In this document: one piece after another, positions 9,006 to 49,056 of the stretch
How positions within the stretch are numbered: the first letter of the stretch is position 1
How the letters are laid out: every line of letters starts with the position of its first letter
NCBI RefSeq assembly: GCF_902652685.1
Contig: NZ_CACRUY010000041.1
Span: forward strand, 1 to 49,056
Reading direction: 5' to 3'
From: Mycobacterium sp. Marseille-P9652
GTDB lineage: Bacteria > Actinomycetota > Actinomycetes > Mycobacteriales > Mycobacteriaceae
DNA: 49,056 nt
Program-made: the position numbers and the translations under genes
Notes under the pieces: generated by a model
What the model was told of the DNA's origin: nothing
Seen by the model: only the letters and a program-made list of their open reading frames with translations
The model's database searches: none

Positions 9006-10217
9006 CTATGCCGGGCGGTCGCGCCGCGTCGAGGCGCCCTCCAGGAGCCCGGACTGCTCGAGCGCGGCCTCGACGAACCGCTGCACCGGCCGGGAGCGGA
9101 AGAAGCCGGTGTGACCGCCCGGGTACCAGACGATTTCGGGCTTGCCCCAGTGTTCCCAGAGGCGAACCACTTGTTCGCGCGGGTGCACCACCTGATCGGC
9201 GACGCCGGCGTAGATGAAGCGGCCGGCCGGCGGAACCAGCGGCGACAGCGACAGCGGCGAGGTCATCCTGCCGATCGGTTCGGCCAGTTTCATCGTCTGG
9301 TGGCGGGGGTCGTCGGGGTGCAGGCCGGCGTGCCGGCCCAGCAGCCCGACCAGGTCGGCGACGGGGACGCCCAGGATCGCGCAGACGAGGTCGCGCTCGA
9401 GGCTGGCGACCAGCGCGGCGATGTAGCCGCCCAGCGACAGTCCGTTCAGCCCGATCTGCGACTCCGGCTCTTCGCGCCGTATCCACGACAGCAGCCGCCG
9501 GATGTCCCATACCGACTGCGCGGTGGCGTGCACGTCGTCGAGGACGTCCTCGCCGGGAAACACCGCACCCTTGGGCAGGCCGCGGGCGCGGGGACCGTGC
9601 ATCGGCAGCACCGGCAGGACGACGTTGAGGCCGAAGACCTCGTGCAGCCGCCAGGCGCGGAACAGGGCGAGGTCGAGCCCGGCCCGGCCCATCTCCGTCC
9701 CGTGCACGCAGACCAGCCAGGGCCGCGGCTCCGGGTGGCGGAGCAGCAGGGCGTATTCGCGGTTGTTGGCCGTGTATCCCAGCCACCGCCCAGCGCCGGG
9801 TTCACCGGGCCGCGGCAGGTATCCGCTGTCGTAGGAGATGCGGTGCAGGGTGGCCTTGCGGCCCTTCACTTTTCGGACCGTGACGTCGGTCAGCGGGGGC
9901 GGCGCTCCGAAGAACCGCTTGGGATGGTCGAGCCAGCCCCGTTTGCCGTAGAACTCCAGCGCCGCGACCACCTCGCCGGTGATGCGCTCGAACAGCTCGG
10001 GGCGGCTGAGCGGGCGGCGCGCCCGCAGGCCCAGGAGGACGATCTCGTCGCGGAAGGCCTGCGCGGCCAGGGCGAGCGTCGGCCGCGCGATCGGGAGGCC
10101 GCCCGGCTCGGGGTCGAGGTAGTCCCGCCACGACTGCGCCAGGTACACGCCGGTGTGCGCGAACGGCTTGACGGCATCGCCCAGCCCGGGGACTCGGGGG
10201 GGACCAGGTACTGCCAT
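9006..10217 (-). CDS. Alpha/beta-hydrolase-fold protein, Rv2627c-like
   Basis: A 403-residue protein strikingly similar to M. tuberculosis DosR-regulon protein Rv2627c: the stretches FAHTGVYLAQSWRDYLD, WLVCVHGTEMGRAGLDLA and KPEIVWYPGGHTGFFRSRPV agree with it as remembered. GLSLGGYIA supplies the nucleophile Ser of an alpha/beta hydrolase, and the late GGHTGF supplies a candidate catalytic His. Activity and substrate are unknown. The ATG at 10217 follows a TACCTT -10 by 6 nt, so the transcript is probably near-leaderless, and a perfect DosR palindrome is centred 43 bp upstream. First gene of an operon with WS/DGAT. Confidence 0.9.
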   Translation of the reverse strand: MAVPGPPRVPGLGDAVKPFAHTGVYLAQSWRDYLDPEPGGLPIARPTLALAAQAFRDEIVLLGLRARRPLSRPELFERITGEVVAALEFYGKRGWLDHPKRFFGAPPPLTDVTVRKVKGRKATLHRISYDSGYLPRPGEPGAGRWLGYTANNREYALLLRHPEPRPWLVCVHGTEMGRAGLDLALFRAWRLHEVFGLNVVLPVLPMHGPRARGLPKGAVFPGEDVLDDVHATAQSVWDIRRLLSWIRREEPESQIGLNGLSLGGYIAALVASLERDLVCAILGVPVADLVGLLGRHAGLHPDDPRHQTMKLAEPIGRMTSPLSLSPLVPPAGRFIYAGVADQVVHPREQVVRLWEHWGKPEIVWYPGGHTGFFRSRPVQRFVEAALEQSGLLEGASTRRDRPA

Positions 10218-38413: not shown

Positions 38414-38448
38414 CTGGGGCTAGATTCGTCATCTGCACATGACCTGAG

Positions 38449-38520
38449 TGGTCCCGGCTGGGATCGAACCAGCGACCTTCCGCGTGTGAAGCGGACGCTC
38501 TTCCACTGAGCCACGGGACC
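38449..38520 (-). tRNA. tRNA-Val (CAC)
   Basis: Full cloverleaf on the minus strand: acceptor GGTCCCG/CGGGACC, anticodon loop TTCACAC (anticodon CAC), T arm with GGTTCGATCCC. CCA not encoded. Confidence 0.92.
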
Positions 38521-38880: not shown

Positions 38881-38955
38881 GCGCGATTAGCTCAGCGGGA
38901 GAGCGCTTCCCTGACACGGAAGAGGTCACTGGTTCAATCCCAGTATCGCGCACCA
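38881..38955 (+). tRNA. tRNA-Val (GAC), island integration site
   Basis: Acceptor GCGCGAT/ATCGCGC, anticodon loop CTGACAC (GAC), T arm CTGGTTCAATCCCAG, CCA encoded. Its last 11 bases begin the 17-bp direct repeat that bounds the island, so the gene stays intact after insertion. Confidence 0.95.
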
Positions 38956-38961
38956 GAGTTT
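38945..38961 (+). repeat. attL: 17-bp direct repeat in tRNA-Val 3' end
   Basis: ATCGCGCACCAGAGTTT covers the 3' acceptor strand, discriminator and CCA of tRNA-Val(GAC) plus six bases. Confidence 0.88.
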
Positions 38962-39281
38962 ATGCAGACGAAAGCGTATATTTAGCCCACCAAATAAGGG
39001 CCAATGACCTATATATGACCTGACACTCTTCTGCTGGTGACCTATATAAGAGGTAGTCAGGCAGAACCTGCGCCGATTTCCGGCGACACACCAGCAACCC
39101 CATTGCCAAATATCCAAACCGAAGGGGCCGGCGCCGCGGCAATCAGGTTTACTCGCCCATCTGCGTTCAATCGGGCGAGCGTGCGGGTTACGGTTCGATC
39201 CGGGGACCATGACGTAGCAGCCGCAGCACTGATCCGGACACCAGCGGAACTGGATCTCTCCAGCGTTTGGAGGTGGAACCT
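38962..39281. other. Gene-free stretch next to attL with repeats
   Basis: No gene is supported here. It contains AT-rich sequence with the direct repeats at 39005 and 39038 described separately, and nothing resembling an integrase fragment in any frame. Confidence 0.6.
39005..39048 (+). repeat. TGACCTATATA direct repeats near attL
   Basis: TGACCTATATA occurs at 39005-39015 and 39038-39048, 33 bp apart (about three helical turns), with a related ATGACCTGA between. Position 45-90 bp from the att core suits arm-type integrase or excisionase sites. Confidence 0.5.
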
Positions 39282-39517
39282 ATGCGAATCGAGATTTGCC
39301 AACGTTGCAATCGACGGCTGGTAGTGAACCACAAGGGCCGGTTTCCGGCTCATAAAGGGCGCGAGAGTGGACGTGGGTTTGCAGTGGTTCGTATCAGAAA
39401 CCCGGTGAGCAGGAACTGTCGACTGAATTTCAGAAGGAACTGCGGAAGATCGAGAAAGCCAAGGGTCGCGCCAAAGTAAGCGCCAAAAGCAAGACAGGGA
39501 ACAGTCGCCTCCACTGA
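39282..39517 (+). pseudogene. Phage-type zinc-ribbon protein, frameshifted
   Basis: ATG 39282 has a strong GGAGG site and encodes CQRCNRRLVVNHKGRFPAHK. Near 39370 the frame must shift by one base to continue as VCSGSYQKPGEQELSTEF and finish at TGA 39517; in the original frame the ORF runs on to a stop at 39479 with no sensible sequence. Joined, the two halves give the Cys-x2-Cys...His...Cys-x-Gly-Ser pattern of small actinophage zinc-ribbon proteins. A single-base deletion is the simplest explanation; sequencing error or programmed frameshifting is not excluded, though no canonical slippery heptamer is present. Confidence 0.6.
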
Positions 39518-39666
39518 CGGCTAGATGTTCCGTCTGCCACAAGCGGGTACGACTACGTAAAGACGGCCGAGCAGTGTCCCATGGTTACGACGGCGACGGC
39601 TTCAAGTGCGGTGGGTCGGGAAGGTTGCCGGTCGGCGGGCGGCCCCCGCACGATTGGCCTCAGTAA
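39514..39666 (+). CDS. Second zinc-ribbon protein, possible CTG start
   Basis: The frame encodes ARCSVCHKRVRLRKDGRAVS, then HGYDGDGFKCGGSGRLPV: a clear Cys-x2-Cys / His / Cys-x-Gly-Ser zinc-ribbon like its neighbour, indicating a paralogous pair. No ATG, GTG or TTG opens the frame; CTG 39514 overlaps the upstream TGA (CTGA), the position where an ATGA overlap would be expected. It is either a gene with a weak start or a decayed one. Confidence 0.5.
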   Translation: MTARCSVCHKRVRLRKDGRAVSHGYDGDGFKCGGSGRLPVGGRPPHDWPQ

Positions 39667-39917
39667 GCGTCGAACCGATGCCGGACAGCTCGGACGCCGC
39701 CGAAGAAAGGGACTGCGGAACCGCTAGCAGGTAAGACATTGCCGTTCCTCCGTGTGTCTACCCCCCAGCGAAAAGTATGACCCGCCTCTACGGGCCCGCA
39801 AAGCGCATTTTTCAACAACAAAGGCTTTCTGTCGCCCAGGCGCTCCCCATCGAAGGCGTCCAGAGCGCAGGACCCCTTACAAAAGAGGACTGAAACCAAC
39901 TCGACCTGCAGGTCCAG

Positions 39918-40190
39918 CTAACGGTTGTCGGGGCACCCCTGCTCTCGTCGGGGGCGGCCCGGTTCACGCCGAGAGACGTGCCCTCGCTTCAGCGGCAGGG
40001 GCTGCGTTCGCTTCGGGGGCAGCAATGTTCCCAGGATTGGGACGCCGCCAAGGTGTTCGCTGCACCACTTGTCAACGGCACTCTTGTAGCTGCCGTCATC
40101 GTTGTAGAACCGACGGTGAATCCACGGAATCTGGTCGAGTTTGAGGGCCAGTTGCTTGCCGGCCGCGGCGGCCGTGACGATCGGTCTCAC
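39918..40190 (-). CDS. Hypothetical island protein (90 aa), leaderless
   Basis: GTG 40190 follows TAGATT (minus strand) by exactly 7 nt, a leaderless promoter. The 90-residue product reads RPIVTAAAAGKQLALKLDQI, then PWIHRRFYNDDGSYKSAVDK, then a basic tail. It lacks recognisable domains. Coding potential is plausible in the first 60 residues and weaker in the tail. The 250 bp between the zinc-ribbon gene and this one hold nothing I can name. Confidence 0.4.
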   Translation of the reverse strand: MRPIVTAAAAGKQLALKLDQIPWIHRRFYNDDGSYKSAVDKWCSEHLGGVPILGTLLPPKRTQPLPLKRGHVSRREPGRPRREQGCPDNR

Positions 40191-40429
40191 GCTTCCTAAT
40201 CTATACAAATTTGCACTTCGGCGCCCCCAGGTGCGTCGGCAACCGAGTCGCCCCGATCGCGCGTCTGGACTAATCGATCGGGCCGCCGTGCTCTCCTCAG
40301 GGGAAGCCCAGCCATTTTGCGAAATTGCGTTCCGACCACTAGGCAAGAGCTATCAGACACGCGTACAGTACGTGAGTTGTTTTGGCGTTTCATGTGAGGC
40401 CCGCAATTCCCCGACCATGGGAGCTAGCG

Positions 40430-42343
40430 ATGTCGTCTTTTGTGATCGCTTCGCCGGATGTGTTCGCATCGGCATCAGAGGATCTGAGTGCGATTGGGTC
40501 GGTGATTCGGGCGGCCCATGTCGCGGCAGCGCCATCGACGACGACAGTAGCGGCTGCGGCTGAAGACGAGGTGTCGCAGGCGATTGCGTCACTGTTTTCC
40601 GGCTACGCGCAGCGATATCAGGCGCTTAGCGCCCAGGCGAGTGCCTTTCACGACACGTTCGTCAACCTACTCGGTGGCGGGGCCGCGCAGTATGTGAGCA
40701 CCGAGATCGCCAATGCCGGGCAAATGTTGGTGAACACGGTGCAAGCGCCCTCGCAATCTTTACTGGGCAATCCAGCCGCGAGCTCACCGTCGCCTGGGGT
40801 GTTTTCTTCGCTTATCGATGCCGCTTTGATCAACCCAACGGTGATTTCGACCGCCAAGAGCGTGATCGATGCAGTTACCACGACGACTTCGAGCACCAAG
40901 AGTTACGGTTATGGCACTGACGGCACGCAGACCGTGACGGTTGACCGGGTTGTCCTAAACCTTGCACCACTCGCTGATGAAGTTCAAAACGTTGTTCAAG
41001 GATCATTGGGCAGCCAGTTGGCATCGAGTATTAACGGACTTTCCGGCACGCCTCTTTTAACTAGCACCACGATCTCGGGATCGGATTCTGCCGGGAAGTC
41101 GGTAACAACCGTGGACTATCGCACTTTGGGCGGCTTCGGTATAGGGGTCAATGCAGACACCGCTAACCAGAGTTACAGCGCAAATTTGAGCATCCCGGGC
41201 TTCGACATATCGTCAGGGGCAAGCCCCGCAGGTTTCTATGGGAGTAGCCACGTTTTAGGTAGCGGCGGGGCGCTGGCAGTAAATAATGGAAGTGTGATTG
41301 CCAGTGTGCAGTTTGGTGCGGAACTCAGCAAGGACCTCAGTCTCGGCGATGCTTCGGCAACGATTCAGGTGAACACGGCAACCGGGAACGTGTCTGGCGA
41401 CCTATCTTTAAACAGCGGATATTTTGGCGCGTTTAAGGGTGATCTGCTGCTGGACCCTGGCGACGGTATCGGGGGCACCTACACTCAATCTGGTTGGCTA
41501 AATTCCCTTTTGGTGGGGACCAGTGACCCCGTCAATATTCCTCTTCAACTCGACAATCCTTCTTTCCTCGGCTCTTATCCACCGGCTTTAAATCCCTCTA
41601 AGGTCCTCGATGATCTGACCAGTGGAGTGAATTTCTCAAGCCTCAATAAACTGACGATACAATCCCAAGTTGGAAATAATCCGATCACTCAAGGTATAGA
41701 TGGCTTTGTCGGAGATCTATCGAATTGGCCCACGCAGCTATTGGACTTCGGATACGCAACTGATCCTGCGCTGACAAATTACATAGTGGGTGTATGTAAT
41801 GCGCCCGCAGACCTCTTATTGGGGCATCCACTAATCGGTGATGGCGGGTTGCTCGTCAACACTGCGACCGGCGGCACCGGCAGCGGCACCGACACCGGAG
41901 GCAGCATCTCCGCCGACTCAATCGTGGGAACCTGGAAAGAAGTCAACGAAGTAGCAACAGGCTCCTTCGTGGGCACTGCCCCTGGCGTTGCCTATCAAAA
42001 TGGGGCCGAATATTCGATCACCAAGACCGGAGCTGTGTACGACTTCGCAGGTGCAGGAACTCTGACCCCAACCCAACCCCTGAACTACTCGGGCACATGG
42101 GGCCCAGCCATCAACCAGGGTCTTCAATCAGTCATACAGACCCAATACCAAGATCCCTACATCTCCGATGTAGTGCTTACCTTGCCATGGGGAGCGACCT
42201 TGTCGAGTGACGGCACGGTCATGAACCTCGTCGAGAACCTCACCTGGACGTGGGTTGTCACAGACCCAGGTCCACCTACTTCTGTCTTCAATCAAGGTGG
42301 CACGGAGCAAATTACCGTTACCTTTGACAAGGTTTCGAATTAG
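40430..42343 (+). CDS. PE-family protein with non-repetitive C-terminal domain
   Basis: A 637-residue protein. Residues 1-100 form a PE domain (SSFVIASPDVFASASEDLSA), with Pro-Asp rather than Pro-Glu at 9-10, and the ESX secretion motif Tyr88-x3-Glu92 (YVSTE). Residues about 130-480 are Gly/Ser/Thr/Asn-rich beta-type sequence without PGRS repeats. After a Gly/Thr/Ser linker near 498, residues about 510-637 (ADSIVGTWKEVNEVATGSFV onward) resemble a small lipocalin-like beta-barrel. Such proteins are exported by ESX-5-type systems, usually with a PPE partner; none is present here. Third positions are less G/C-rich than in flanking genes. Start ATG 40430 has GGGAG upstream. Confidence 0.85.
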   Translation: MSSFVIASPDVFASASEDLSAIGSVIRAAHVAAAPSTTTVAAAAEDEVSQAIASLFSGYAQRYQALSAQASAFHDTFVNLLGGGAAQYVSTEIANAGQMLVNTVQAPSQSLLGNPAASSPSPGVFSSLIDAALINPTVISTAKSVIDAVTTTTSSTKSYGYGTDGTQTVTVDRVVLNLAPLADEVQNVVQGSLGSQLASSINGLSGTPLLTSTTISGSDSAGKSVTTVDYRTLGGFGIGVNADTANQSYSANLSIPGFDISSGASPAGFYGSSHVLGSGGALAVNNGSVIASVQFGAELSKDLSLGDASATIQVNTATGNVSGDLSLNSGYFGAFKGDLLLDPGDGIGGTYTQSGWLNSLLVGTSDPVNIPLQLDNPSFLGSYPPALNPSKVLDDLTSGVNFSSLNKLTIQSQVGNNPITQGIDGFVGDLSNWPTQLLDFGYATDPALTNYIVGVCNAPADLLLGHPLIGDGGLLVNTATGGTGSGTDTGGSISADSIVGTWKEVNEVATGSFVGTAPGVAYQNGAEYSITKTGAVYDFAGAGTLTPTQPLNYSGTWGPAINQGLQSVIQTQYQDPYISDVVLTLPWGATLSSDGTVMNLVENLTWTWVVTDPGPPTSVFNQGGTEQITVTFDKVSN

Positions 42344-42593
42344 TGCCGCCGCACAGTTATGTCGCCCAAAGCTAGGGCGAGTTTCCGTCAACGGGCCGGC
42401 GATCTAACAGGTTAGGGCGCGTCGCAAGGTCGGCAGTGGGGCCGATCGAAGCTTGCCTGAAAGCGTGTGAGCCGCGCTCGAAAGTTTGCCGCAGCCCGGT
42501 GTGCCTTGCCAAATGTCTTTGAGAACACCCGCTTTCGGACACGGATCGAACCCAGGATCTCGGAGCAATGTCGAGACGGGCACGCCATGTGTC

Positions 42594-42606
42594 TAGTGTC
42601 AGGACG
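42594..42606 (+). promoter_or_regulatory. Leaderless promoter of the AlbA_2 gene
   Basis: TAGTGT (42594-42599) is followed by 7 nt and GTG 42607. Confidence 0.6.
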
Positions 42607-43791
42607 GTGACTAACTCGGAACCCTGGCCACCGCGCACAGAGGAGCAGATTGCACACGCAGCGGCCAACGGACTCCTGGAGGAAACCCACTACCTCGACA
42701 TCAAGCGCGAACTGGCCACAGGACCACGTGCGAACAGAGACATCGCGAAGGACATCGCGGCGTTCGCGCTCGACGGCGGCGTCATCGTAATCGGGGTCGA
42801 CGAGGTCACTTCGCCGCCTAAGCTGCACCCGATTGATGTAGCCAACCTCGGCGAGCGGATCGAGTCGATCGCCGCCTCCTCGGTCCACGAAGCGGTCACC
42901 GTGTACACGCACGTCGTCGAATCCAGCACTCCCGGGCTGGGCTATCTGGTCGTTGAGATCCCGCCATCACCACGAGCGCCGCACATGGCCGACGGGCGCT
43001 ATTACGGCCGCGGCGACAAGAGGAACCGCCCGCTTCCTCACGAAGAAGTATTGAGGCTACATGAGCAGCAAGCGCGGCTCGACCAAGACATTGTCGCCGA
43101 ATCTCAGGAGACGCTCGACCTATTGAAACGGCAATACCAGTTCCACTCAGAACCGCTACTGATTCGAGCCAAGCCACTAGGCGCTCGCGGCAATTTCCTG
43201 ATGCAATTGTCGGACTCTGGCAGTTGGCGTGACGACGTGAGGGACCTCGTACGACTCGCGGCGGTCGGTTCACACCAAGCCGCGGTGCCGTCTCTGGGCG
43301 CGCCGACGGGTGCGGCTAGAAGGGACCGCGGTGTCGCCGCAACGGTGAATATGTTTGACGACAAGCGATTTGGTGGTCCGCAGGATGCTGCAGAAGTGAC
43401 ACTGCGCGAGGACGGCACCATCACCCTGGTATCGGAACGAGCGGTTGCTTACCCGAATCCGGGAGATGCTCGGATATTGGAGGCGGTTTTCCTCGGCCAT
43501 GCCGACCTGATGGCGCGGCTTGCCGCACGAGTATCCGCCTACGGCTTCCGCGGGTCGTGGCGTTTCGCAATTGCCGCAAACGGCCTCCACGGCGCTCGAT
43601 CAGCTGAGTTGAGAAACTACTTCGACATCACCGACGCGCCACCCTTCTCCGAATCGCGTTACGGACAGGCGGCCACCGCAACTTTGAAGGAGCTGGAAAC
43701 CATCCCACCGATGGTGGTGAGTGAGCTTGTAGGCCCGTTGCTTCGGTCTATCGGGAGCGCCGGCCACTTTCCCTGGGTATTCGAGCGATGA
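42607..43791 (+). CDS. AlbA_2/Schlafen-type putative DNA-binding protein
   Basis: A 394-residue protein. Residues about 18-150 form an AlbA_2 (Schlafen AAA_4) domain: EETHYLDIKREL, KDIAAFALDGGVIVIGVDE, LVVEIPPSPRAPHMADGRYY and GRGDKRNRPLPHEEVLRLHE. The C-terminal 240 residues are unassigned. Proteins with this domain occur as regulators and, in several phage-defence contexts, as nucleic-acid effectors; its location on a phage-derived island makes defence or phage-control roles reasonable hypotheses. The leaderless GTG 42607 is preferred over ATG 42568. Confidence 0.8.
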   Translation: MTNSEPWPPRTEEQIAHAAANGLLEETHYLDIKRELATGPRANRDIAKDIAAFALDGGVIVIGVDEVTSPPKLHPIDVANLGERIESIAASSVHEAVTVYTHVVESSTPGLGYLVVEIPPSPRAPHMADGRYYGRGDKRNRPLPHEEVLRLHEQQARLDQDIVAESQETLDLLKRQYQFHSEPLLIRAKPLGARGNFLMQLSDSGSWRDDVRDLVRLAAVGSHQAAVPSLGAPTGAARRDRGVAATVNMFDDKRFGGPQDAAEVTLREDGTITLVSERAVAYPNPGDARILEAVFLGHADLMARLAARVSAYGFRGSWRFAIAANGLHGARSAELRNYFDITDAPPFSESRYGQAATATLKELETIPPMVVSELVGPLLRSIGSAGHFPWVFER

Positions 43792-44107
43792 CCACGTCGG
43801 TCAAGTCCTAAATGATTGCCGGGTCGGACGTGCTGGCATGCCACGCGGTGCTTTGGGTTCGAGCCGAATTGGTCGGTGGCATTGAGTGCCTCGACTTCCT
43901 CGGCACCTCTGCATGGCGAGGAAGTCCGCGAACTCCTGCACGTCACCGCCAGGCCACTCGTTGCCCGCCGTCAGCCACCGCGGGCGCTGGCCCGCGCACA
44001 AGCACGAGCAGGGCTCGTCGTTCCGTCCCACCGCTCGCACTGCGGCCACCGCCGGGCGTCGACTAGCTCGGGCGGCAGCGATTCCCCTTCAGGTGGTCTG
44101 CGCCGCA
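43792..44107. other. Degenerate stretch between AlbA_2 and terminase genes
   Basis: A minus-strand frame (44049-43801; GRNDEPCSCLCAGQRPRWLT, 82 residues) is open but has no recognised domain. Its place downstream of the terminase small subunit suggests decayed phage sequence. No gene is firmly supported. Confidence 0.35.
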
Positions 44108-44428
44108 TCACGCCCCCAACTGGTAAACGCCGCGGATGCCACGGCGCTGGCTTGCTGCTGGGCGGTCGTCCTCATCGCCAGTCGGCACGCGCAGTGCCAC
44201 CAACAGGCGCGCCAGGGTGATCCGCTGCTGACGGATTTCGGCGACGGCAGGATGCGTTTTACCGCCCATTTCGATAGGGAAAACCGGCCCATCGGCATTA
44301 ATGCGGGCCTGTAGAGCAGCGATCAAATCAGCTGTGCGTGCAGCGTTCTCCAATAGCAGCAGCTCGTGAGGCTCAAGCTCATAAGCGCTGGTCACCGCGT
44401 CCCACAGCTTGCGCCCCGCGGAACTCAA
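44108..44428 (-). pseudogene. Phage terminase small-subunit-like remnant
   Basis: About 106 residues: AGRKLWDAVTSAYELEPHEL, then ENAARTADLIAALQARI, THPAVAEIRQQRITLARLLV and ALRVPTGDEDD, the pattern of P27-type terminase small subunits of mycobacteriophages and prophages. The open frame starts at TTG 44428; a TGA lies upstream (about 44470), and a well-placed ATG there is in another frame, implying a damaged N-terminus. No large-subunit sequence follows. The 216 bp between it and the DUF732 gene hold nothing recognisable. Confidence 0.65.
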
Positions 44429-44644
44429 TTTCCGCGGGTCGGGTGCGTAACTGCGGCCATCAGGAGCCTTTCAGGGTCGAGTGCGGTTCAGTCTGCGTGG
44501 GGGGCGCCGTCCATGCCGTAATAGGTGCGGATGGGGCCTAGGGGAGTCATAGGCCAGGTGGGGGGGTCCAGCAGGGTTGAACGAAGGGGTCACGCCTAGC
44601 CGGCGTCGTTGCGCTCCCCCGGTCACCCACGCTCGGTTCTTGTC

Positions 44645-45523
44645 TCAGGGTGCGAGGCTGACAAAGCCCGGCGCCGGCGACGGCCGCGCCCCCGGACCGC
44701 CGCCGTTGCCACCGCCGTCAGTGCTACCACCGCCGGTGCTCCCACCACCCGTGCTCCCACCGCCGTTACTGCCAGCAGCGCCCCCCGGCTGAGGACCGAC
44801 AGCAGGAGGCTCCACCTGCTGCGGTGGAGGCGGCGGCTGTTGCGGTGTTGGCGGCGGTTTTTGCGGCGGAGGCGGCGGCCGATTGGGTCGAGGCACAGGC
44901 GCGAGTTGCTGGGGTGTTGGCTCGACCTGTGCCGCCGGCGGCTGTGGAACCTGCGGCGGGTCGGGTTGGGTGATATCTCCGGACGGAATCGCTTCGGTCA
45001 GCCAAGCGGGCACTGCGCCCCGCGCGTCACCGTCGGACCTGCTTCCCGCGGAGCGGACGGAAGCGAAAGCCATCGGCAACGTCTGGGGACGTACCCCTGC
45101 CCGAGGACCAGGCGTGGAGAAGCCGTAGTCGTTGGTTACGTACGGATCGGTCATATGGCTTGGGCAGTAGACCTGTATTGATACGGCGATGAATCTGACG
45201 GCGGTTCTGTGAACCCGTCCGGACGCTTGGCGGTATTCCGGATTGTGCTCGAACATACCGTTCATCTCTTCGTCGACCACGTCGTAGACCGTGGCGCCGT
45301 GATCGAGTTCGGCACAGATTTGATGGGCTCGGGCAACGAGAGCGGGCACGTTGTCGACGGCGGGAATCTGGGCTGCCGCGAGTTGCGTCACGAAGAAATC
45401 CTGCAGTTCGTGCTGGGTTGGGCCTGGGTCGGCGCCTGCCGCGCCGGCGCAAATAACTGCGGCGGTCAGCACCGTCGAGGCGCTGGCGAGAGCGCCTGCA
45501 AGGGTGGCAATGCCGGTGCGCAC
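44645..45523 (-). CDS. Secreted DUF732 protein with long proline/glycine-rich tail
   Basis: A 292-residue exported protein. Signal peptide residues 1-31 ending ICAGAAGADP; a DUF732 domain to about residue 120 (TQHELQDFFVTQLAAAQIPA, ending VYCPSHM); then a tail from about 195 with poly-Pro/Gln (QQPPPPPQQVEPP) and four GGGSTGG-like repeats. The tail could span the cell wall. GTG 45523 is the start. It is the island's last gene, next to attR, and may be cargo or displaced host sequence. Confidence 0.85.
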   Translation of the reverse strand: MRTGIATLAGALASASTVLTAAVICAGAAGADPGPTQHELQDFFVTQLAAAQIPAVDNVPALVARAHQICAELDHGATVYDVVDEEMNGMFEHNPEYRQASGRVHRTAVRFIAVSIQVYCPSHMTDPYVTNDYGFSTPGPRAGVRPQTLPMAFASVRSAGSRSDGDARGAVPAWLTEAIPSGDITQPDPPQVPQPPAAQVEPTPQQLAPVPRPNRPPPPPQKPPPTPQQPPPPPQQVEPPAVGPQPGGAAGSNGGGSTGGGSTGGGSTDGGGNGGGPGARPSPAPGFVSLAP

Positions 45524-45715
45524 GGCAGGATTTCCGTTTCTTCGGGGCCTTCTGCTCAGTAGCTAATTCAACACGTGTAACGACAGGACGTCCATAGGTG
45601 TAGTTGTGGTTGCCGGGCCGCCCCTGTACTCCTCGCGGGCGGTCCGATCGCGTTATGCCGGCTGTTAGGCGGCGTGCCGGCTGCAACTGGAGATGGTGAC
45701 ATGACTGGAGTTTCC

Positions 45716-45732
45716 ATCGCGCACCAGAGTTT
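45716..45732 (+). repeat. attR: 17-bp direct repeat
   Basis: ATCGCGCACCAGAGTTT is identical to 38945-38961 and lies in non-coding sequence 28 bp beyond the adenylate cyclase stop. Confidence 0.88.
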
Positions 45733-45759
45733 TCGCACTTCGAAGCGATTCACGCCCCA

Positions 45760-47295
45760 TCAGTTGGTGATGTCGACTCGTTCGTCGGCTTCTTGGTCGA
45801 GGCCGAAAACCTGCACGGAGGCCGACTTCCCTTTCAGGACATAGGATCCCCGGTCGATGAGCCCGGCCGGCGGGGACGCAAGCGCGTCGACGCACTGCTG
45901 GGTGAGAAGGATGGTGTCCCCTGTTGTCTTGGTGAGTTGCTCGACGCGGGCCGCCACGTTGACGGCGTCACCGATGAGGGTGAACTCCAGTTTGCCGCCG
46001 CCGCCGATGGTTCCGGCGATCACGACGCCGGTGTTGAGCCCGATGCCGATCCGAAGCTGCCCACCGAACCGCTCGGGAACCAGGCGGTGAATCAGCACCG
46101 CGGCGGTGACCGCGGCATCGGCATGGTCAGCGAGGTCGTTGGGGGCGCCAAACACGGCCAGCGCGCCGTCGCCGAGGAACTTGTTGACGTGGCCACCGGC
46201 GTCGACGACGGCAGGCACCACGATTTCGAACAGCGCGTTCAGACGCGAAACGGTGTCCTCGGCCGAATTCGCCTCCGCGAACGGAGTGAAGTCTCGGACG
46301 TCGACGAACATCACCGTCACCTCGCGGCGCTCCCCGCTGAACACGTCGTCACCCTGCGCGAGCAACCGGGCCGCAAGCGCCGGGTCGACATAGGTACCGA
46401 ACGCGGCGTGCAGGCGACGCCGCTCCGCCAAGCCGGCCTGCATGCGGTTGAACGACGCCGCCAGCGCACCGAGGTCGTCGTCCTGTACCACCGGCAGACC
46501 CTGGCTGTAGTCACCCGCCGCAACCCGCTTGGTTCCTTCGGCCAGGTCCCGAATGGGTTGCATGGAAGGTGCGAACGAGGCTCCGACAGTGATGGGAACC
46601 GCGAAGAACAGCGCCAACCCAGCCGCCACCCCCACCACGAGGACCACGGGAGCCTCGCGGGCGCCCGTGAAGGCCAACGCCAGCATTGCACCTGCGGCAG
46701 CAAACGCGAACGCAGCGGCCAGCACCGTCAGGTTCGACCAGGCGGCGAACGTCGGACGAGAGCGGGGCAGGCTTTCGCCCAACCCCGTCGTACCGGTAAG
46801 CGCCACCCGGGCAGGCCGCAGCGCCGCTTCCGCGATGCTGTGCTGTCCGATCAGAACCACCGAAAGTCCGAAGGCCGCGCCCACGACCGCGTACTGGCCC
46901 AACCGTGAGCCCGTCGACCCGCAAACCGCAGCCACCAGACCGAACAGCACAGCGATGAAGACAGCGTCGGCCACCAATGCCCGGATCCCCAGTGCCCTGG
47001 CATAGGCATACGTGGCTTCGAGCACCTTTGCCCGATCGACCTCTTGCCCGGCGGCCCATCGCTCCAGAAGCCGACTTTTGCCGACTCCGGGAAGGACGTT
47101 CACGTAGGTCGTCACGAGCACCGCTCCGACAGCCAGCGCGCCCGCCTCCACGTAACGATCGGACCCCTCCATGGCGACGACCACAAAACACAAGACGACA
47201 TAGACCGCAATCAATTCGGCGGACAGGATCACATACATCGCCCACGAATACCGCGATCGGTACCGATCCCACGCCCACTGCCACACGCGCTCCAT
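45760..47295 (-). CDS. Membrane class III adenylate cyclase (six TM, HAMP)
   Basis: A 511-residue protein like M. tuberculosis Rv1318c-Rv1320c: six transmembrane helices in residues 1-260, a HAMP linker (MQPIRDLAEGTKRVAAGDYS), then a cyclase domain from about 320. Catalytic residues are complete: metal-binding Asp in VMFVDVRDFT, Lys in VNKFLGDGALAVFG, and the Asp, Asn and Arg of IGDAVNVAARVE. It makes cAMP, the likely ligand of the acetyltransferase at 11261. ATG 47295. Confidence 0.92.
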   Translation of the reverse strand: MERVWQWAWDRYRSRYSWAMYVILSAELIAVYVVLCFVVVAMEGSDRYVEAGALAVGAVLVTTYVNVLPGVGKSRLLERWAAGQEVDRAKVLEATYAYARALGIRALVADAVFIAVLFGLVAAVCGSTGSRLGQYAVVGAAFGLSVVLIGQHSIAEAALRPARVALTGTTGLGESLPRSRPTFAAWSNLTVLAAAFAFAAAGAMLALAFTGAREAPVVLVVGVAAGLALFFAVPITVGASFAPSMQPIRDLAEGTKRVAAGDYSQGLPVVQDDDLGALAASFNRMQAGLAERRRLHAAFGTYVDPALAARLLAQGDDVFSGERREVTVMFVDVRDFTPFAEANSAEDTVSRLNALFEIVVPAVVDAGGHVNKFLGDGALAVFGAPNDLADHADAAVTAAVLIHRLVPERFGGQLRIGIGLNTGVVIAGTIGGGGKLEFTLIGDAVNVAARVEQLTKTTGDTILLTQQCVDALASPPAGLIDRGSYVLKGKSASVQVFGLDQEADERVDITN

Positions 47296-47374
47296 GCCGG
47301 GAGACTAAATGGCCGGCGGTGTTTTCATCCTCCTTCTGCGCGGAATATTCGTCCCGCACTGAATGACGACCTCG

Positions 47375-47548
47375 CTAGTTCTCGGGTGGATATTCCCAAA
47401 TGTTCGTGTGGTTCAACTCGTGGTGATGGACGCACACCATTTGCTTGCCCTGCCCGTCGGTGGTGGGTGGTGCACCCAGCGGGCATTGGTCCCCCGGCGA
47501 CGGCGCCAGCGGTGCGAACACCAGCGCGGCGACTATTGCGAATTTCAT
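47375..47548 (-). CDS. Small secreted protein (57 aa), unlisted
   Basis: ATG 47548 to TAG 47375 encodes a short hydrophobic N-terminus (KFAIVAALVFAPLAPSPGDQ) and a polar remainder with two Cys (DQCPLGAPP, QMVCVHHHELNHTNIWEYP). The two cysteines probably form a disulfide after export. It lies in a row of small secreted-protein genes on the same strand. The HHH run might bind metal. No strong ribosome site. Function unknown. Confidence 0.6.
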   Translation of the reverse strand: MKFAIVAALVFAPLAPSPGDQCPLGAPPTTDGQGKQMVCVHHHELNHTNIWEYPPEN

Positions 47549-47605
47549 ACCAAAGACACGAATTCAGCCAGGCAGTTGTTCACGTCAGCCCCAGCCGGGC
47601 ACTGA

Positions 47606-47839
47606 CTAGTTGGCACCCGGCTTCGGGCTGGCCGCGGCAGGGGCGCCATAGATGCAATCGTGCAGCTCCTGACTTCCCGGGGCGAAGTCGAAGCCGCAGT
47701 TGCACTCGTGAGCGTCGCGGGGCGCGAGCGAATCGCAATATGGGGTGGTCGCGGACGCCGCCGGCGCGGTCCACGCCACCTCGGTCGACATGGCTGCCGC
47801 CGCGACGCCGACCGCCGCAATCAGTACTTTCGTCTTCAC
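47606..47839 (-). CDS. Small secreted cysteine-rich protein (77 aa)
   Basis: GTG 47839 with AAGGAA 7 nt upstream. Signal peptide residues 1-30 (VLIAAVGVAAAAMSTEVAWT), mature part with four Cys (YCDSLAPRDAHECNCGFDFA, then DCIYG), so two disulfides are likely. Family not recognised. Confidence 0.72.
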   Translation of the reverse strand: MKTKVLIAAVGVAAAAMSTEVAWTAPAASATTPYCDSLAPRDAHECNCGFDFAPGSQELHDCIYGAPAAASPKPGAN

Positions 47840-48088
47840 CGTTGGAATTCCTTCTCTTGCCGACGACGGCGCTCTGCTGCGCCCGTTACCGAGATGAGAG
47901 CATCCTGCGCACTCAGGTTGCCGAATACTAGCGTTTTCGCGGGAAAGCCGCATTCCGGCGGCCGCCCGAAAACACGCGGCTCAACTCAGTAGCAAGACTC
48001 CTCGGTGCCAACGAAAGCAATTGTCTCGCTTAACGTCCGGGGCACTCAGGGCGACCCGAACCCCCCGGGCGAACCCATGCGCGCGACG

Positions 48089-48313
48089 CTAGGGTTGCTG
48101 GGGCGGTGCGGGCGCCGGCGGCGGGCACGGCTTGCCGCCGCGAATTCCGATGACCGTTCCCGTCGTCGTGGTCACCGGTCCCACCGTCACACCGCAGGGC
48201 CAGTTGGCCACATTGCCGGGATCATTCGGGTCCGGATCGGCTTGCGCGACCCCCGCGCTGAACGCCAGGGCGGCGAACGCCAGCCCCGCACCCATGATTG
48301 CTTGTTTCCGCAT
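48089..48313 (-). CDS. Small secreted proline-rich protein (74 aa)
   Basis: Signal peptide RKQAIMGAGLAFAALAFSAG to VAQADPD, then a 50-residue mature part with two Cys (WPCGVTVGP, GKPCPPPAPAPPQQP) and a threonine run. ATG 48313. Resembles common mycobacterial small exported proteins; function unknown. The 249 bp upstream (47840-48088) hold nothing recognisable. Confidence 0.75.
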   Translation of the reverse strand: MRKQAIMGAGLAFAALAFSAGVAQADPDPNDPGNVANWPCGVTVGPVTTTTGTVIGIRGGKPCPPPAPAPPQQP

Positions 48314-48410
48314 TTCTTTCTCCCCCTAAGCCGATTTTGAGTTTTCGCGGGATGTTGCGCGCAGAAGCGTCGTCGCCGCCGACAAATTGCCGGCGGCCGC
48401 GCTGACGGTG

Positions 48411-48722
48411 TTATGAGGACTTGTGCTTGTCCGGGCAGTATTCCGCCGTGGCTGCGAGCACGAACAGCCTGGCTTGAGCCTGGTCCATTCGCATCTTCAG
48501 CTGGTCGATCTCATCGCTCGGGGTGTATCCGGCGGAAAGGTCTTGGCACATCGTGCGCCCCATGTTGCCGGTCTGGGACGCGTCACCAAGATGGATCCCG
48601 TTCGACGCCAGGTAATTGGTGAATTCCGCGTCCTTGTTGTCAGCGCCGGCCACCGCCGCGGGCACCACCATCAGGGCCATCGCGGCGCCGATGACGCACC
48701 CAGACACCTTCTTGATCATCAT
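48411..48722 (-). CDS. Secreted DUF732 protein
   Basis: A 103-residue exported protein: signal peptide to about residue 27 (VIGAAMALMVVPAAVAGADN), then DUF732 (DAEFTNYLASNGIHLGD, TMCQDLSAGYT, ATAEYCPDKH) with the conserved Cys pair. ATG 48722 or ATG 48719. Third DUF732 gene in the window, but not closely similar to the others. Confidence 0.85.
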   Translation of the reverse strand: MMIKKVSGCVIGAAMALMVVPAAVAGADNKDAEFTNYLASNGIHLGDASQTGNMGRTMCQDLSAGYTPSDEIDQLKMRMDQAQARLFVLAATAEYCPDKHKSS

Positions 48723-48956
48723 CCCCCACCACTTTCACGGGTCACATGACACTCGGGACAAGACGGGACACCCGAAGCACCGCCTCGAGAACCCTTGCAC
48801 GGGTATTACCCCCGGTGGGGACTAATTGACCGCCGGTTCCAAAGTTCAACCAGCCGTTCATCTCTCGTTTCGGCCGAGTTCGATCCAGGTGGGCGCTCAT
48901 TCTCGCCACGACACGTAAATCCCTGCGATGACACGCCGCTTGGGCTCAAGGGGTGA

Positions 48957-48974
48957 TTGCAACACTTCGTAGTT
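48957..48974 (+). repeat. Putative IS terminal sequence at right edge
   Basis: TTGCAACACTTCGTAGTT, 11 bp before the transposase start, resembles the sequence in front of the left-edge transposase (TGCAACA shared, then a similar TTCG/CCGTTGTT pattern). The other end of the element is outside the window. The sequence between the DUF732 gene and this site (48723-48956) shows nothing else. Confidence 0.4.
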
Positions 48975-48984
48975 AGGGGTGTTG

Positions 48985-49056
48985 ATGACGGGTGAGCCTC
49001 AGGGGTTATCGGTGCGCCGTCGGTTTTGGGAGCTGGTAGCGCAGGGTGTGCCGCCG
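48985..49056 (+). mobile_element. Transposase N-terminus (partial, runs off right edge)
   Basis: Twenty-four codons from ATG 48985 (AGGGG upstream) encode MTGEPQGLSVRRRFWELVAQ and on to the edge. The RR-x-F-x-x-L-V-x-x-G-x-P pattern parallels the left-edge peptide, so both probably belong to the same transposase family, IS30-like by inference. Confidence 0.5.

Follow-up and report, generated by a model that had tools for sequence, protein, structure and literature searches.

What is the origin of the 6.8 kb of DNA that lies between a tRNA-Val(GAC) gene and a second copy of the end of this gene in Mycobacterium sp. Marseille-P9652? The window analyzed here, the 49,056 nucleotides (nt) of contig NZ_CACRUY010000041.1 (assembly GCF_902652685.1), contains both copies and everything between them. 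The initial annotation described the region as a tRNA-Val island with att repeats and no integrase, carrying phage remnants and linking a virulence-type secreted family, the PE proteins, to a mobile element. We propose, with a probability of about 0.65, that the 6.8 kb represent a decayed phage satellite of the phiRv2 type at a tRNA-Val hotspot. The island is best read as an immobile, perhaps composite relic of such a satellite at a site already known for phiRv2. In the following, G numbers stand for genomes, L numbers for loci and C numbers for contigs.

The repeat pair at tRNA-Val(GAC)

38881..38955, + strand: tRNA-Val(GAC) with encoded CCA (ARAGORN), last gene of a Gly-Cys-Val cluster and integration target
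38945..38961, + strand: left copy of the 17-bp repeat ATCGCGCACCAGAGTTT, at the 3′ end of tRNA-Val(GAC) with CCA included
45716..45732, + strand: right copy of the 17-bp repeat ATCGCGCACCAGAGTTT, read as a damaged attR

The exact 17-bp repeat that includes the tRNA 3′ end and CCA was confirmed. Both copies are identical, their starts are 6771 bp apart, and in register they agree at 91% over 22 bases. When up to three mismatches were allowed, the 17-mer occurred at these two places only in the window; 100 shuffles gave a mean of 0.15 matches and in none of them were two matches reached. For an exact 12-mer the chance expectation is 0.02. The first 11 bases of the 17-mer correspond to the 3′ strand of the acceptor stem, the discriminator base and CCA. 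The Gly-Cys-Val cluster is matched in 374 of 396 genomes of the genus, with the own genome counted and the 396 drawn evenly from a larger group, and a tRNA-Val(CAC) is located on the strand opposite to the cluster at 38448-38520.

An integrase between the copies was not found, in agreement with the initial annotation: the three PF00589 matches of the own genome are all on other contigs, and tblastn of three integrases from elements at tRNA-Val(GAC) against positions 38956-49056 gave no match. Capsid, protease, primase and large terminase queries from the elements of four relatives had no tblastn match in the window either, a search that a very distant homolog could escape.

Integrase-bearing elements at the same tRNA

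In relatives, elements of 8.7-13.5 kb are found at this tRNA, with a tyrosine integrase adjoining the distal core. PHROGs searches with 30 chosen proteins from five of these elements identified a major head protein, a head maturation protease, the small and the large terminase subunit, a portal protein, a primase, an excisionase-like protein and an integrase, with not every function present in each of the five and several proteins unmatched. In an alignment of the five integrases, the other four were 58-75% identical to the first.

Genome contigs were scanned for related integrases, and the best 80 of 89 loci were kept, with the mycobacterial class taken from record names. Of the best 80 loci, 34 have the 11-nt core, formed by the first 11 bases of the 17-mer, no further than 400 bp 5′ of their integrase; these 34 include 28 of the 30 mycobacterial ones. 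In 13 of the best 80 loci it is paired with a tRNA-Val(GAC) 8.7-11.1 kb away. The loci without the 11-nt core near the integrase are the mycobacterial L133 and L152 and 44 of the 50 others, some of which have the tRNA but no exact core. The piece that is duplicated in these elements is longer, namely the 23 nt TTCAATCCCAGTATCGCGCACCA from the T-loop to CCA, found in all 28 mycobacterial loci examined, a set selected for an 11-nt core adjacent to the integrase. On the left side of the island, the equivalent stretch is 38933-38955, and the tRNA holds the full core. Taken together, these comparisons show that the integrase family goes with the tRNA-Val(GAC) site and that this tRNA is a recurrent integration site, a hotspot. 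A scan of viral contigs gave 44 relatives of the integrase, which were included in the search for cargo genes. Five integrase relatives from Nocardioides and other actinobacteria (L170, L181, L191, L193 and L194) are located ~7-10 kb from a tRNA-Val(GAC), so that the site preference may predate the genus.

We also read the DNA that follows tRNA-Val in 52 other genomes (0.93 Mb in total, at least 12 kb in 48 of them). This is a non-random sample of genomes in which the tRNA cluster or the upstream genes are similar, with a few added on account of a gene match; short stretches of G173, G091 and G201 were excluded, as was G378, whose stretch has no tRNA-Val. A second 23-nt core together with an integrase match, or most of one, was found in eight of the 52 regions (G080, G058, G277, G203, G064, G285, G327 and G259). 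This number is a lower bound, because the integrase of M. europaeum (L138) lies by coordinate ~18 kb from the tRNA and thus outside the regions read. A second core without an integrase match was seen in two regions, G217 and G248, whereas G132 has a core copy with four mismatches and no integrase match, and G026 and G266 have integrase fragments of 78 and 123 amino acids (aa) and no second core. In G203 the integrase match spans 297 aa and the element also seems by eye to contain transposase-like genes, a reading obtained with a rough picker of open reading frames (ORFs) based on G+C.

Where they are present, the anchor genes past the variable zone follow the order A1sec, CDF transporter, alpha/beta hydrolase, AGCS, ClpC2-like, MsrB and HemY (names by eye); a noisy ORF clustering was used solely for choosing them. 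The initial annotation had suggested a search for strains with an empty site, and nearly empty sites do exist in relatives. In G257 a DUF732-like gene begins 106 bp after the tRNA and A1sec follows at 710, and in G249 A1sec is found at 314 after the tRNA. Among the 52 regions, these two are the nearest to what would be empty sites. The DNA after the tRNA of G259 (L214) contains 23-nt copies at 9433 and 16494, the latter with one mismatch; their 11-nt cores lie at 9445 and 16506. Such a row of three core copies, one in the tRNA and two beyond it, suggests that two elements stand in tandem at the same tRNA-Val.

The damaged right copy

Compared with the 23-nt core, the right copy in the window has 12 mismatches, all of them in the first 12 positions, and keeps the last 11 nt. 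The second copies without an integrase match in relatives differ from the core at one (G248), four (G132) and five positions (G217). The six further bases that are shared by both copies after the 11-nt core, GAGTTT, resemble the sequence that usually follows tRNA-Val. A consensus of the post-tRNA sequence from the 52 regions is matched at 16 of 24 positions by the right copy and at 15 of 24 by the left copy; 12 of 4782 random 24-mers reached 13 matches. Since the repeat is made up of 11 nt of core and a flank similar to post-tRNA sequence, 17 bp is not the size of the att core. Of the att repeats at tRNA-Val claimed initially, the location stands, as relatives use it for integration, but the two copies do not form a matched attL/attR pair: only 11 nt are left in the right one of the 23 nt that are duplicated in 28 of 28 mycobacterial integrase-side copies. 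We read the right copy as a putative damaged attR. Two accounts of the damage fit. One is a deletion with an endpoint within the core; the other is a rearrangement at the site, because ACTGG, located just upstream of the right copy, also precedes the core in L141, L143, L147 and L161. The state of the 23-nt core offers a simple means to separate relics from intact elements.

It is highly improbable that the right copy is an unrelated fragment, which arose by chance or by duplication of a tRNA end without site-specific recombination, and that the region is ordinary chromosome. The copy is indeed short, the 12 bases 5′ of it are unlike the tRNA, and G222 and G261, two of the 52 regions, contain the 11-nt core apparently by chance. 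However, a match of the longer kind is hardly expected by chance, the sequence after the right copy resembles the conserved post-tRNA sequence, and the tRNA-Val site is a hotspot by comparison. We give equally little credence to a still-mobile small element without its own integrase that would depend for its movement on an integrase supplied in trans by a related satellite. Although the tRNA holds the full 23-nt core and integrases for the tRNA-Val(GAC) site are common in the genus, the right copy, changed at 12 of 23 core positions, has no similarity to the integrase-side arms past the core.

A sequence similar to AGTTTNNGCAGGTCAGAG (at least 12 of 18 matches) was present in 40 of 72 post-tRNA sequences of tRNA-Val(GAC), in 13 of 57 of tRNA-Val(CAC) and in the single one of tRNA-Ala, the latter in G378 at L114 11612-11629. 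It could be either a host signal or an element arm.

A phage gene in the orientation of the satellites

44108..44428, - strand: terminase small subunit (TerS; phrog_1496, 3.7e-17), pointing towards the tRNA as in integrase-bearing elements

Relatives of this TerS were found in L139, L150, L152, L158, L196, L194, L242 and L252 at 34-48%. In the five mycobacterial integrase-bearing loci among them (L139, L150, L152, L158 and L196), the relatives match at 34-45% and are encoded on the strand of the integrase. In L139, L150, L152 and L158, TerS is located between the integrase and tRNA-Val(GAC), with the tRNA 3.2-5.1 kb beyond TerS, compared with 5.2 kb in the window; in L196 the tRNA is outside the DNA read. 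Viral contigs contained one weak relative (26%). No match was obtained in the phage collection by blastn of the TerS region, by tblastn of TerS or by blastn of the left part of the island. The phage remnants of the initial annotation are thus represented by one terminase small subunit, and no other gene was recognized as phage.

Based on TerS, on the incomplete right core and on the sequence of post-tRNA type that follows it, we infer that the DNA of the island entered by integration of a satellite. TerS is homologous to a gene of several elements, in which its orientation is the same and its distance to the tRNA is comparable, and the damaged distal core is followed by sequence like that normally found after tRNA-Val. 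A satellite would have integrated by means of a tyrosine integrase that recombined its attP with the 3′ end of the tRNA gene, whereby the tRNA was restored. Later, the integrase, excisionase, replication and capsid genes would have been lost, as would 12 nt at the start of the attR core. Accessory genes may have persisted in an element that is now presumably fixed and immobile.

Accessory genes between the copies

39918..40346, - strand: small ORF without Pfam, PHROGs, NCBIfam or PADLOC match; 62% aa identity over 88 aa to DNA after the same tRNA in G240
40430..42343, + strand: PE-domain protein of 637 aa with an orphan C-terminal part (PF00934 over residues 5-95, 2.5e-29)
42568..43791, + strand: SLFN_AlbA_2 protein of 407 aa (PF04326, 2.1e-10)
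44645..45523, - strand: DUF732 protein of 292 aa with a P/G-rich tail (PF05305, 3.7e-11)

The PE, AlbA_2 and DUF732 genes reported initially are present according to these Pfam matches. Relatives of the AlbA_2 protein occur in 19 of 395 other genomes, with long matches at 46-50% and shorter fragments at up to 68%. The relative in G131 (L119) belongs to a 13.1 kb element at the neighbouring tRNA-Val(CAC). This element has an integrase at its far end and is bounded by a 26-nt repeat of the tRNA-Val(CAC) end (96%; L119 6163-6188 and 19288-19313). In G311 a tRNA-Met as well as capsid-like and integrase-like matches are found near the relative, and in G234 and G187 it lies at most 1 kb from a tRNA. 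The AlbA_2 protein had no match in the phage collection (tblastn), in viral contigs or among PDB sequences, and PADLOC detected no defence family among five proteins. The DUF732 gene has a DNA match of ~1 kb (75%) beside tRNA-Val in G261 and another match in G378, 0.6-1.6 kb after a tRNA-Ala(CGC); the stretches in G261 and G378 share 88% identity over 1013 bp. Judged by such contexts, the AlbA_2 and DUF732 genes are putative accessory genes, with relatives that are repeatedly found next to other tRNA genes and at other places as well. When 28,613 stop-to-stop pieces of the relatives' regions were compared with positions 38962-49056, 42 matches were obtained, with seven matches in the stretches of the PE N-domain and of the cyclase described below set aside; between the copies, the other matches fell on TerS, the small ORF (G240) and the DUF732 gene (G261).

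The PE protein contains YxxxE at residues 88-92 of its translation (seen by eye), a motif which we take to be the type VII secretion signal. Its C-terminal 527 aa (window 40760-42343) were matched in one of 396 genomes, its own, at an E limit of 1e-15, in a search of limited sensitivity with three candidates scored per genome among the matches shown. This part had no match in plasmid or phage collections or in viral contigs and none in Pfam, NCBIfam or PDB sequences, and no known toxin domain was found in it. An AlphaFold model of the protein calculated without alignment was uninformative (pLDDT, predicted local distance difference test, 34.5). A WXG100-type partner was not detected by Pfam among nine proteins tested, which do not cover all shorter ORFs. 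None of the 13 paired elements had a match to the PE N-domain, and the only match among the integrase loci was in L156, outside the element there. In the 52 regions the N-domain was found at four places (G058, G203, G051 and G261), none of which is enclosed by the tRNA and a second 23-nt copy. The own genome has at least 30 PE-domain DNA matches among the matches listed, so that a PE gene near tRNA-Val is numerically unremarkable. Thus, the PE gene is enclosed by the repeats, but its presumed link to the satellite, and with it the initial claim that a virulence-type secreted family is tied to a mobile element, is weak. That the protein is genuine satellite cargo, a PE secretion domain fused to a part of ~540 residues without counterpart in the searches and carried by a phiRv2-type element, seems quite improbable to us. 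If true, tRNA-Val satellites would deliver type VII secreted proteins to slow-growing mycobacteria, similar to the prophages with phage-encoded ESX-secreted toxins (PEST) in M. abscessus. The PE protein adds a not yet proven case of a secreted-type family within phage-derived DNA.

Weighing the origin of the island

Several observations weigh against a phiRv2-type satellite as the source of the island. As a unit, the island is carried by no relative examined. The same island with an integrase at this tRNA-Val, which the initial annotation had proposed to look for, was not found, and the best long match of the upstream genes among the 396 genomes searched is 83% over 3.1 kb. TerS is the sole gene between the copies that was recognized as a phage gene. 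Neither a second 23-nt copy (up to five mismatches) nor an integrase match was present in 39 of the 52 regions, four of which are shorter than 12 kb. The G+C content decreases from ~0.71 to 0.54-0.68 between the copies; since this drop begins at ~36.5 kb, left of the tRNA cluster, and continues right of the second copy, it is no island marker. With 12 of the 23 core nt missing from the right copy, an attR of this integrase family is not separable from the site of another integrase. The 11-nt cores in G222 and G261, which are without the T-loop part and of which that in G261 lies inside the CDF gene, indicate that 11 nt by itself can arise by chance. The accessory genes add to these points. The context of the AlbA_2 relatives was read in 12 of the 19 genomes, and eight of these 12 stretches are without a tRNA; their nearness to tRNA genes is moreover given without a control set for how often any gene adjoins a tRNA, and AlbA_2 relatives also occur in 18 plasmid records. 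Shorter DNA matches of the DUF732 gene (74-78% over ~0.4-0.5 kb) are located elsewhere in G110, G189 and G387. In G261 the DUF732 gene lies beside the same tRNA-Val with no second 23-nt copy within 13.8 kb, hence the gene may have been resident. According to the initial annotation, genes in place without the repeat in close relatives would speak against an island, and this was observed for the DUF732 gene alone.

The region could also have grown by accretion, with several elements and genes gained and lost after tRNA-Val, so that DNA of several events would now lie between the two copies, with TerS stemming from one satellite and the DUF732, AlbA_2 and PE genes from others. We regard such an origin as possible but rather unlikely. 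It would agree with the two extra core copies after the tRNA in G259, with the second copies without an integrase match in G217 and G248, and with the fact that the small ORF, TerS, DUF732 and AlbA_2 each match different genomes. However, just two copies remain in the window, TerS has the orientation and position that it would have in a single element, and no internal junction was recognized. The relic of a phiRv2-type satellite remains our preferred reading of the 6.8 kb.

The right flank and the contig end

45760..47295, - strand: adenylate/guanylate cyclase with HAMP, outside the repeats
47375..47548, - strand: small ORF R1, 91% aa match ~0.8 kb after the second core in G080
47606..47953, - strand: small ORF R2, 48% over 77 aa in the flank of G097
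48411..48722, - strand: short DUF732-like secreted-type protein (name by eye), 67% to the G257 gene 106 bp after tRNA-Val; no NCBIfam match

Due to the match of R1 after the second core of G080 and that of the DUF732-like protein after the tRNA of G257, the right copy seems to be positioned at the right edge of the inserted DNA. The cyclase is possibly a further insertion. Two stretches of 82% to it are present on contig C7 of the own genome (49219-51365), ~8 kb from an integrase match there. The contig of the window (C41) ends at 49056. The CDF ortholog of the own genome is located on contig C86 at 4605, and C86 also matches the anchor regions of G249 and G080; C86 therefore probably continues C41. 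The contig break, at 49056 and at the start of C86, looks by eye like a split IS30-type transposase, for which NCBIfam searches with two short pieces gave no confirmation.

Comparison with known systems

According to excerpts of the published descriptions, phiRv2 of M. tuberculosis is integrated in valU, which belongs to a Gly-Cys-Val transcript (PMC3861185), and is listed in tRNA-Val with a size of 10.8 kb (Table 1, PMC3986857). The integrase of phiRv2 was placed in the IntTn916 subgroup (excerpt of PMC8138268). In an excerpt of PMC10654092, phiRv1 and phiRv2 are called similar to phage-inducible chromosomal islands (PICIs), and candidate PICIs in Mycobacterium are described. The island resembles phiRv2, known here from these descriptions, in its location at the same tRNA of the Gly-Cys-Val cluster. 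In contrast to phiRv2, the window lacks an integrase and any match to the capsid, protease, primase and large terminase queries; its distal core is damaged and its accessory genes are different ones. With phiRv2-type satellites in general, it shares the location at the 3′ end of tRNA-Val(GAC) and the orientation and tRNA distance of TerS, whereas a second 23-nt copy, a tyrosine integrase beside the far copy and a capsid or protease gene were not found. By these features, the island is not an intact phiRv2-type satellite (candidate PICI).

A literature search found no named island of this kind and no paper that joins Mycobacterium, the PE family, a genomic island and tRNA-Val. In having a large protein with an ESX-type N-terminus within phage-derived DNA, the island is reminiscent of the PEST cassettes on prophages and PICIs of M. 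abscessus that are described in part of PMC10654092. Unlike in these cassettes, the protein in the window carries a PE domain and has no adjacent integrase; its C-terminal part is without known domain, and a partner was not found among the ORFs tested.

Satellites at tRNA-Val(GAC), for example those of Mycobacterium sp. 852014-50255 (L154), M. celatum (L152) and Mycolicibacterium iranicum (L139), use the same site as the window. L139 and L152 carry relatives of the TerS of the window on the strand of the integrase. All three have an integrase, unlike the window, and the 11-nt core stands beside it in L139 and L154, while no exact 11-nt core was found in L152. These comparisons indicate that the phiRv2 site is a genus-wide hotspot where satellites arrive, decay and may leave accessory genes, and, by the integrase, a hotspot in other actinobacteria as well.

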